64,000 nt of DNA from Calonectria ilicicola. Lineage: Eukaryota; Ascomycota; Sordariomycetes; Hypocreales; Nectriaceae. The position numbers and the translations under genes are program-made. The notes beneath the pieces were generated by a model that did not search any database, was not told the origin of the DNA, and worked only from the letters and a program-made list of their open reading frames with translations. The stretch spans positions 7,936,001-8,000,000 of the forward strand of contig CP085826.1 of assembly GCA_020809705.1 (NCBI GenBank), read 5' to 3'. This document shows positions 4,690 to 47,256 of this stretch, piece by piece (the stretch's first letter is position 1; each line of letters opens with the position of its first letter).

Positions 4690-4791
4690 GGTGAGATGGC
4701 CGAGTTGGTTATGGCGTCAGGTTAAGGTCACCTTAACAACCGATAATTCCTGATGGAGCAATCCTCCTGGGTTCAAGTCCCAGTCTCATCA
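4690..4791 (+). tRNA. tRNA-Leu(AAG): tRNA-Leu (anticodon AAG) with a 20-nt intron
   Basis: Cloverleaf read by hand. The acceptor arms are GGTGAGA (4690-4696) and TCTCATC with discriminator A at 4791; one G-U pair. The D arm is GCC/GGC with the GTTGGTTA loop. The anticodon stem is TCAGG/CCTGA (4717-4721, 4749-4753), with anticodon AAG at 4724-4726. A type II variable arm GGAG-CAAT-CCTCC follows, then the T arm CTGGG-TTCAAGT-CCCAG. The 20-nt intron (4728-4747) sits one base after the anticodon, the canonical place. It contains CCTTAA, which can pair with the anticodon TTAAGG. The mature length of 82 nt is normal for tRNA-Leu. A TTTTC/TTTTT tract right after the gene is a Pol III terminator. Confidence 0.95.
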
Positions 4792-44129: not shown

Positions 44130-45599
44130 GTTTAGTGATGCTAAATTGAAAGATTTTTACCAGAATCCCAGTGCCATTTATCTAACACTGAACTCAAACC
44201 CGACATAATGGAGAATTACGTGATGAAATTTTACTAAATACCGAAATATTCCGAACAAGATAACCAGCACTCGACAATGTAAAAACTTTAAATACATGGG
44301 GCAATAATCACGTGGATGGTTGTATCCCTGCTTCTCTGGGCTTCATTTCAACTCTGATACACCCACAGGTCTGTTGGTACAATCGCCCTTGCGCCAACTC
44401 TGAAGCCTACTGGCAATACTGGATGAAAACCCCGATAGCTAGAATCCGCATACAATAAAAGAAAGCTTTTCTATCAGCCAGGAATGCAGTCACGCACACT
44501 CAAACACATAAACAACCAAGAGTCTAATTAACTATAATGTTGACGATTGATACGGATTTTTAGTGGAATTCTGTTGGATGCGACATTCCAAGTCTATCTA
44601 TACAGAATTCTGGCAATGCAATTCATTTATCATACAGTTGACTCAAAGCTGATAAAGACATCGCCCGCTCCCCGGTCCAAACTGGCATTTTCCAACCTAC
44701 AGTCGACACAGCGAACCCCCAAAGCTGCATCAAATATCTACCTTGGAAAACCGACACCAAGAACATACGAAAGGTTAGTTACATCCGTTATGACGTCCAG
44801 CACTGCCAGAACGTCAATTGAATACGATCTTTCCAGCACATCTATCACACTCACAAGTGGTCCCAATCATTCAAACAGACGGCTGTTACGTAGGTCAGAT
44901 GCTCGGACTATCCGGCATCGGAATAAAAGTAATAGAAAGATGGTCACGGCCGCTGTCGGCCCCAAAGCACCAGACCAAAAAAACACACGAGCCCGACTTA
45001 TCAATATACATACCACAGGCCCTGCCGGGCCCGGCCAATTGACCACCGAGGCCAAGGCGCGATCGTCATGTCGATCAAACGTTAAAACCCTGAAGCCGAG
45101 CTCTCATCGAAATTTCGCAAAGGGCCGTCTCCCAGCTCTCAGGTGAGGATCGAGACAAATTGATGGCTGAAGTTCGAAGTCTTCTGCCTGAGAAAGCATG
45201 AGACCATCACGAGTTGCCACATGCTCTTGCTGGAAGTTGATTGGGCTTATGGCCAAGAAATATGCAAAAGGTCAACTTCCTATATCAATCGACATCCTAT
45301 GGCTACAAAGATCGGTAATTCACGCATGTTCCTTCACTTAATCCTCTCATATCATGTCCGCGCTCTTGGCTTTGAGACTTCTTTTCGGTATGAAATCGGG
45401 GCATTGGTGGGAAGTAAAAGGCTCCTTTCACATCAGATCGGATATGGTTTAGCCTAAATTTATTTCCGATTATTCCAAAGCTAGAAATTTACATAATCGA
45501 ACCGAATCTGCTGGCAGTCGGCCGAGCTGAAACTCCAGTGGAGAACTCCATACAACGACTGAAAGCTGCCCTACCCATGTGCCTCGACAAGGTGTAAAT
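44130..45599. other. intergenic region with GH78 tail duplicate and a possible flavoprotein relic
   Basis: Contains the 117-bp repeat copy. At 44830-44940 (+) the frame reads VGQMLGLSGIGIKVIERWSR, which recalls the N-terminal FAD fold of aromatic-ring monooxygenases but lacks the GxGxxG loop and any continuation. I regard it as a doubtful relic. Nothing else supported. Confidence 0.35.
44523..44639. repeat. 117-bp direct repeat, copy 2 (upstream of the GH78 gene)
   Basis: Second copy of 41279-41395, about 390 bp upstream of the GH78 start. It retains the equivalent of the final codons (AACTG.ATGAT.AATGA) but no preceding GH78 coding sequence. Most differences from copy 1 are transitions. Confidence 0.85.
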
Positions 45600-46077
45600 T
45601 TACTGCAAGTAGCGATTTAAATTAGTGTCTGGTCAACAATCTGTTTGCGAGAAGACTTACGCAGTGCTATCAAGAGCATCGGTATCAGCAAGCTAGCTCA
45701 AAAATAAGCTGTTCTGTGATCAAATCAAAAGACTTACTCCTAAGAGACGCTTTTGGTGGCAGGCCATGTATTAGCAAATTGAAGCGGGTACTTTGTCTCT
45801 CATCACATGGCGATACTTACAACAATCCAGGGGTTGGTCTATCAGCAGTATTGCTGTTAGGAAACTGAGCCATCAATCCAATCCATTGGAGATACTTACG
45901 CAGTTGGAAGGCTTGATCTATGAATTAGCAAACATGGCCCAGACCAAAAGCTTTCGCATCAGGTGAGCTACTCACATCGCGTTCCTGCAAGTTCGTAGCC
46001 GGCTTCTCCATAGCTGGGGCAGCTACAGCTGTTCCAGCGAGGGCAGCGACGGCGGTGAGGACGATAGAAACTTTCAT
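45600..46077 (-). CDS. micro-exon gene for a 52-aa secreted pre-propeptide
   Basis: Six exons on the minus strand. 45976-46077 encodes a signal peptide (MKVSIVLTAVAALAGTAVA) and a short pro-region ending LQERD. Then come 45900-45917 (18 nt, IKPSNC), 45821-45838 (18 nt, TNPWIV), 45738-45749 (12 nt, RLLG), 45661-45666 (6 nt, HC) and the stop codon at 45600-45602. Introns are 58, 61, 71, 71 and 58 nt. All are phase 0, with GTGAGT/GTAAGT donors, AG acceptors and, in most, CTAAT or CTGAT branch sites. The predicted peptide tail IKPSNCTNPWIVRLLGHC has two cysteines that could close a 13-residue ring. Every internal exon can be skipped without changing frame. The family is not recognised. Role inferred: secreted signalling, defence or effector-type peptide. 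The model needs transcript evidence. Confidence 0.7.
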
Positions 46078-47256
46078 TTCGGGAAGAGCTTGTAAAAAAG
46101 AGTGACAAGATGTTTAATAAGGCAATGAATGTGTACAGAAGAAGATGATGAGTTTCCACAAAGCCAACATGTCGGGGAATCTCGAGCTATATATCTTCCC
46201 CTGAGAACTACCCGATACGGTATACTGCTATGTAATGGGGAAATCAGCGAAACGGGGTATCTGCATGGCTAACTGTCGGGGCGTTGAGCAAGGGCATACA
46301 GGTTATGGGCAGGGAAGAGACCAGGTAAATGAAACCAAGGAAATCAAGGGTGAGTATCACGTGAAATCTCTCGCGGCGATAGGGTGTGGTAGTCGCGTGA
46401 GCAGTCTATTATGAGGTAATCTGAATATTGCGTCTAAACATTTTCTACGAGTGCGCTGACGTGGTCTCATGAGTCTCGGGCAACTGAAATCAGGTGGTTT
46501 TGGGGTGTTGAATGGTGAGACTTTAACAAGACGATAAATCCAATGCTTTTTTGCACAGATAGAAATTAGTGGTTTTCGGCCCTGACGAACAGGGCTGGTG
46601 AAATGCTCCAATGCCCATTCGCTGGATTTACCAATAAAGTTTCGTTCTCAATTATACCCACCACGAATTCATGAATCCCCACTGTACGCCGCAATTTATG
46701 AAGCCTTAAAATCCTGGCACAGCCCCATCCGGGGCGAGACCCTTGATCCCCAAGGGGAAAGGCAAAAGTAAGTGAGTTTCAGTATTTATTGTGTGTGGGT
46801 CCCCTTGCTATGTCTTATATTTGCCAGTATCCCCTCCTGCAACTACTCATACTGTTTAGTCGTTTTTGGTTTCAAACTGGTTGCCTCAAATCCGAGATGG
46901 CGATGCCTCACTATGTGCGCACTCATCCGAACCAAACAATCTCACTTTGGCAGACAAGCTGTCAAACCAGCGATATACCTTCAAGCATGTTGGTTAGCAG
47001 CCTCACTCCGTGCATTTCACTGGGTCATAGCGCTATCTGCCTGATTTTGCGTCCAACATGAACAACCGTGCTTTCAGCTACGCCTTGAAATAGCTTCCTT
47101 CCACTAAACATAAAAAGGCGTGCCGCCATGTTGCTTCTCTTCCTCAACTTCTTCACCAGTCTTCAGCTGATGTGCCAAAATATTCAATCATCGCCGACTT
47201 TATTGTAATTCTGGTCGCTGTATCTTGTCCTTCTTAGCACTCGTCAACGGGTCAGC
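46078..47256. other. intergenic region, no gene supported
   Basis: Promoter of the micro-exon gene on the left and probably of the small ORF gene at 47257 on the right. The short frames in between have no domain or exon logic. Confidence 0.4.
46188..46194 (-). promoter_or_regulatory. TATA box of the micro-exon peptide gene
   Basis: TATATAT on the minus strand about 111 bp upstream of the ATG at 46077, a good distance for a fungal core promoter. Confidence 0.5.

Follow-up and report, generated by a model that had tools for sequence, protein, structure and literature searches.

Does the minus strand of this window, by which we mean the whole stretch of 64,000 nucleotides analysed here, hold a gene for a small secreted peptide that is pieced together from exons of only a few codons and, if so, does such a gene make one peptide or many?

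The exon chain of the window gene

The original prediction gave no strand. It described a signal-peptide exon, then coding exons of 18, 18, 12 and 6 nt, and lastly an exon holding just the stop codon, with strong donors, AG acceptors and phase 0 throughout. We recover exactly this arrangement on the minus strand, running from 46077 to 45600 (Table 1). The first donor is GTGAGT and the other four are GTAAGT; the acceptors are, in order, TAG, TAG, AAG, TAG and CAG, a branch-like CTRAY site precedes each of the five, and the introns measure 58, 61, 71, 71 and 58 nt. The joined product (splice joins marked by a caret), MKVSIVLTAVAALAGTAVAAPAMEKPATNLQERD^IKPSNC^TNPWIV^RLLG^HC^stop, has 52 residues, and its two tail cysteines span 13 residues inclusive, as had been predicted. 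Internal micro-exons account for 54 of the 159 coding nt and exon 1 alone for 102 nt, while everything past the first residue of the tail is encoded in micro-exons. The product begins with a signal peptide, as read by eye from exon 1 and from the leaders of the paralogues described below.

Table 1. Positions of the window gene, its relatives and the conserved downstream element.
Feature	Position	Strand	Length	Residues	Donor	Remarks
Exon 1, signal peptide and pro-region	45976-46077	minus	102 nt	MKVSIVLTAVAALAGTAVAAPAMEKPATNLQERD	GTGAGT	paralogous leaders
Micro-exon 2	45900-45917	minus	18 nt	IKPSNC	GTAAGT	
Micro-exon 3	45821-45838	minus	18 nt	TNPWIV	GTAAGT	C5 counterpart: TGILV exon
Micro-exon 4	45738-45749	minus	12 nt	RLLG	GTAAGT	
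Micro-exon 5	45661-45666	minus	6 nt	HC	GTAAGT	
Last coding exon, TAA only	45600-45602	minus				after 58-nt intron
Conserved 3' element	45519-45559	minus	41 nt			40 nt past the window stop; DNA search
Paralogue C5	C5:857529	minus				shared leader
Paralogue C3	C3:6734067	minus				shared leader
Paralogue C10a	C10:2184174	minus				shared leader
Paralogue C11	C11:3688893	plus				shared leader
Paralogue C10b	C10:3812820	minus				leader weak; tail and 3' element
C4 peptide gene	C4:2872358-2871185	minus				cysteine-rich secreted peptide; hand-read
C6 peptide gene	C6:5041856-5042525	plus				hand-read; eight exons in phase 0, one a single codon (3 nt)

We scanned for chains of in-frame exons of 3-30 nt lying between AG and GTRAGT. 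In the window the longest such chain, of five members (the end of exon 1 and the four micro-exons), lies on the minus strand; on the plus strand the same AG/GTRAGT scan finds none longer than one. Among 100 single strands of 64 kb simulated with a first-order Markov model, the maximum was 1 in 95 and 2 in the remaining 5. Because the window reaches five and the simulations at most two, the chain lies far above the simulations and is not a product of chance. Taken by itself it nevertheless leaves doubt, because an ad hoc automatic splice scoring places the 18/18/12/6 model third in the window (12.8), behind two models (14.0 and 13.3) that include a 2-nt exon and run on in a longer frame. We accept the 18/18/12/6 model because the paralogues decide the matter, not the splice score, and these relatives within the same genome strongly support the reality of the chain of tiny exons.

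Paralogues in the same genome

A search of the organism's own genome (69,930,349 bases in 12 contigs), with exon 1 and then with the leaders found later, yielded at least five paralogues (Table 1). The leader of one of them, C10b, gives only weak matches (E values of 0.007, 0.04 and 0.2), and its placement rests on its tail and on the 3' element. For C3, C11 and C10b we use the best-scoring automatic models and for C5 and C10a hand-read ones; automatic scoring did not return the latter and gave an unspliced frame for C5 and different joins for C10a.

The C5 gene repeats the micro-exon chain (..LAERSRC^TGILV^KYFG^RC^G-stop), deviating in the donor after SRC, which is GTAACT, and in its end, which is G-stop without a stop-only exon. 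The reading of C10b is ..VRRALRLC^GPELTKALG^HC-stop. In C3 the tail is unbroken within one exon (..QNTFCFGLTAKLLGHC / ..LAERQNTFCFGLTAKLLGHC^stop), which ends in KLLGHC and is followed by an intron and a stop-only exon. Micro-exon 4 (RLLG) thus has its counterparts in the KYFG exon of C5 and in KLLG within the single exon of C3, and micro-exon 5 (HC) in RC of C5 and HC of C10b and C3. The other two paralogues have tails with six cysteines, C10a being read as ..DERAACVVCGSSRG^TCPGCKPSCSHLCN^stop and C11 as ..DERGGCLACGSTYGG^TCEGCKPECIHLCR^stop.

Splice positions recur among these genes. The window gene, C5 and C10b are all spliced directly behind the first Cys and again between G and the last [HR]C, and the window gene has a join between V and [RK] in common with C5. 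As modelled, three of the five paralogues (C3, C10a and C11) end, like the window gene, in a stop-only exon. There is no intron inside the C3 tail, and the tail introns would have been either lost in C3 or gained in the others. By keeping the leader, the Cys pair and several splice positions, the paralogues bear out the proposal that micro-exons here encode a small secreted peptide, probably closed by a disulfide ring.

One leader family with two kinds of cysteine tail

Four members carry ring-type tails, namely SNC-TNPWIVRLLGHC in the window gene, SRC-TGILVKYFGRC in C5, TFC-FGLTAKLLGHC in C3 and RLC-GPELTKALGHC in C10b. In each, 10-11 residues separate the two Cys (C-x10/11-C, at the C-terminus), and the tail ends in [KR]-x-x-G-[HR]-C. 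For the pairs of ring-type tails the real alignment score was reached by 0, 0, 0, 1, 7 and 0 of 1000 shuffles, and for C10a against C11 by 0 of 1000. Across types the tails align no better than shuffles, 198-915 of 1000 of which reach the score in the eight cross pairs. C10a and C11, with their six-Cys tails, are therefore members by leader only, and the group is best described as one leader family with two kinds of cysteine tail.

Leader identity ranges from 0.31 to 0.61 over 15 pairs, and tail identity is 0.31-0.38 among ring-type members, 0.58 between the two six-Cys members and 0.12-0.24 across types; the leader is more conserved than the tail in 14 of the 15 pairs, and the two are equal (0.58) for C10a and C11. 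All six leaders contain a small residue-x-A/[ATS]P, and in five of the six members [LF]-x-E-R precedes the tail, C10b having RR instead. A protein-database search, in a collection that may not hold fungi, returned no match.

Other candidate micro-exon peptide genes

Two further genes were read as chains of small exons. The hand-read C4 gene has 14 phase-0 exons, nine of them of 3 nt, and a copy of the 3' element lies behind it. Seven of its nine single-codon exons fall within a chain of eight with GTRAGT donors, and the plus strand of the 6-kb locus has zero such chain sites; the two remaining 3-nt exons rest on the weaker donors GTATGT and GTGCGT, and automatic scoring returns only an unspliced 34-residue frame. 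The C6 gene was found through a genome census, and its model is purely hand-read, outside automatic scoring. The uniform phase of both genes is partly built in, because frame-keeping exons were preferred in modelling. When searched against the genome, the C4 leader and the C6 leader each found only itself.

The census used the pattern GTAAGT-N40-70-AG-N3-18-GTAAGT, which covers GTAAGT-GTAAGT pairs only, and gave 110 matches where the reversed control gave 436; there is thus no bulk enrichment, and most of the census is background. Among the 30 census loci listed, the chain script found a chain of two or more in none of the 27 outside the window. The places listed by the census also include C4 and C5. 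Another, C10:2344600-2346200, has two consecutive putative short exons. Two more hold successive tiny exon-like segments (TAT, AAT) flanked by good splice sites at about 825-955 of C7:236300-238000, in a gene that looks by eye like one for a larger protein, and one 9-nt exon-like segment (AWG) at about 710 of the minus strand of C9:4811000-4812600, in a gene that looks ordinary and larger.

The eight gene models (window gene, five paralogues, C4 and C6) contain 36 introns of 50-96 nt. Their donors are GTAAGT in 19 and GTGAGT in 9, CTRAY is present in 27, and all 36 are in phase 0, which in C4 and C6 is partly a matter of model choice. An origin from introners or duplicated introns was considered and rejected: the best pair score among the 36 introns (24) lies within the maxima of 10 shuffled sets (21-27), so there is no sign of a common intron sequence. 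TATA-like boxes were seen by eye, without statistics, upstream of all seven genes inspected. The 13-mer TCCCCGACATGTT occurs upstream of the window gene (46166-46178) and also some 700 nt beyond the gene for the C6 peptide (positions 1722-1734 of C6:5041500-5043300).

A single peptide or a repertoire

We consider it quite probable that the window gene belongs to a superfamily of small, cysteine-bearing secreted peptides in fungi, and that in it a constitutive micro-exon chain and leader processing yield a disulfide-ring peptide. The exon chain, the paralogues, the common leader, the common tail pattern and the 3' element are read directly from the DNA; we infer splicing in vivo, the processing sites, the disulfide, secretion and function. 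Good donors on short introns permit recognition of each intron across itself, and the five short phase-0 introns of the window gene would each probably be recognised in this manner (intron definition), with exons of 6-18 nt joined in sequence into a constitutive 52-residue precursor. The joins would probably be successive, because the sites flanking a 6-nt exon could hardly be bound at once. Signal peptidase would then cut the leader at the small residue-x-A/[ATS]P, and a protease would cleave near [LF]-x-E-R (RR in C10b) and so remove the pro-part. The released peptide of 14-19 residues would close into a disulfide ring of 12-13 residues, with the second Cys as its C-terminal residue. Such a predicted peptide is most likely extracellular, with an antagonistic, effector or signalling role, and across the family the leader is kept while the tail changes, two paralogues even differing in their cysteine frame.

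The suggestion that exon skipping makes a family of peptides from the one gene finds no support. Peptide sets generated by skipping have been proposed for the micro-exon genes (MEGs) of schistosomes, and in a combinatorial gene of this sort alternating skips would give a set of peptides with altered rings. Skipping would indeed stay in frame, every micro-exon being a phase-0 multiple of 3, and C4 and C6, two further secreted-peptide genes, read as similar chains. However, the spacing of the cysteines is steady at 10-11 residues in all four ring-type members, and C3, whose whole tail is fused in one exon, is unable to skip. Both facts lead us to favour a constitutive single peptide, and we regard a skipping repertoire as unlikely.

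A conserved element downstream

A DNA search with the region downstream of the window gene found copies of a conserved 3' element (Table 1) after the C10b stop and at C4:2871004-2871045. In the region after the gene start, its score was reached by 0 of 300 shuffles for C10b and likewise for C4. The C5 case is borderline (1 of 300), and C3, C10a and C11 show no match (84, 135 and 293 of 300). An exact-pattern search allowing at most three mismatches returned the window and C10b only, the C4 copy carrying an indel. Folds of the element were insignificant (z-scores of -0.62, -0.27 and -1.04). In the fold of window positions 45510-45564, the outer stem shows apparently compensating changes relative to the C10b copy, as seen by eye and uncounted.

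The element bears on the idea that a 2-nt exon or a longer last exon produces a larger protein. The models of this kind outscore ours in the window alone, the third model of C10b (5.1, as against 6.0) also enters the conserved stretch, and the stretch is conserved in C10b and C4. Nevertheless, the top longer model of the window and the third model of C10b read it in different frames. This difference, together with the indel in C4, makes the stretch better understood as a non-coding element. Moreover, the RLLG^HC end of our product is matched by KLLGHC in C3 and KALG^HC in C10b, and we hold a larger protein to be very unlikely.

Strong divergence of the tails among paralogues could also point to a decaying or non-coding locus, with the chain a leftover and no protein made. 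This seems highly improbable, as the frames joined from predicted exons are open in the window gene and in all five paralogues, the leader is conserved and the Cys pattern is conserved in four members. Least probable is a dikaritin-type RiPP precursor, ribosomal and enzyme-modified: dikaritin RiPPs have UstYa-like DUF3328 genes nearby, and the small precursor does have a leader and a possible processing site, but the window gene has a single core without repeats, and no DUF3328 Pfam match occurs among the 28 window ORFs scanned of the 61 listed, although one could lie in an intron-split gene or among the other 33 ORFs.

Beyond the constitutive ring peptide that we prefer, we put forward a wider and doubtful proposal: this fungus may have evolved phase-0 micro-exon-chain peptide genes independently of flatworms and aphids, with at least three leader types (the window family, C4 with its nine single-codon exons, and C6), and regulated inclusion, possibly with the 3' element, might tune the secreted set.

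Comparison with known systems

The window gene resembles schistosome MEGs and aphid bicycle genes and belongs to neither. PMC4350168 describes MEGs as having a signal peptide, very small frame-keeping exons, a secreted product and a divergent mature part, and as apparently restricted to platyhelminths. The likeness to MEGs put forward in the original prediction holds for the architecture only, with its signal peptide, tiny in-frame exons and divergent mature part. The host is a fungus, the neighbours of the gene in the window, among them Fungal_trans and chitin synthase, being those of a filamentous fungus and not of a platyhelminth. The ring-type members of the window family keep a fixed Cys pair, the C3 tail is fused and introns span the 50-96 nt given above; nor does most of the coding sequence lie in very small symmetrical exons, as it does in MEGs. 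Aphid bicycle genes, according to PMC9168663, have many small internal exons, almost all in phase 2, and secreted, highly divergent products. The window family is similar in its many small internal exons of one phase, its predicted secretion and its divergence, but bicycle genes are in phase 2 with a CYC motif, whereas the window family is in phase 0, with no CYC motif seen and far smaller products.

Filamentous fungi do splice very small exons. Trichoderma virens Xlr2 has one 20-nt micro-exon (PMC11121469, whose abstract calls functional micro-exons previously undescribed in filamentous fungi), and Fusarium CYP621A P450 genes have a 1-nt exon (PMC12940212). Unlike the window gene, these are single micro-exons in a transcription factor and a P450, not a chain in a secreted peptide. 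In PMC5094085 and PMC4545319 the word 'microexon' denotes only an aligner option. Searches of open-licence PMC papers (bioRxiv excluded) brought up fungal micro-exons as single ones, with none arranged in a chain that encodes a secreted peptide.

Two other comparisons concern the peptide itself. Conotoxin superfamilies have a conserved prepro leader and varying cysteine frames in the mature part. The window family has a similar architecture, with a leader more conserved than the mature part and two Cys frames (four members with two Cys, two with six); unlike conotoxins, it is fungal and its micro-exons split the mature peptide, and the likeness is one of architecture, with no sequence relation claimed. 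Somatostatin-type peptides are short, and a C-terminal Cys closes their ring of about 12 residues; the predicted ring of the window peptide is like theirs in topology only, with no sequence similarity or homology claimed.

Secreted peptides of such a build would evade most gene prediction and BLAST, and fungal genomes may therefore hold an unseen set of peptides. A fungal case, beside those of schistosomes and aphids, would suggest that the architecture has been repeatedly favoured. The paralogue set, in which C3 has a fused tail and the other members have more introns, offers a way to test how micro-exons arose, and the nine single-codon exons of C4, should they be real, would put the handling of neighbouring sites by a spliceosome to a hard test.

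Other features of the window

Positions 45000-45098 hold a dispersed repeat that recurs, in full or in part, in at least 18 other places of the genome at 79-87% identity, 6 of the 18 places listed being on C12. A tRNA at 4690-4791 was found by Rfam and missed by ARAGORN in its bacterial setting; an intron in this tRNA is suggested, because its span is 102 nt as against 71 model positions.
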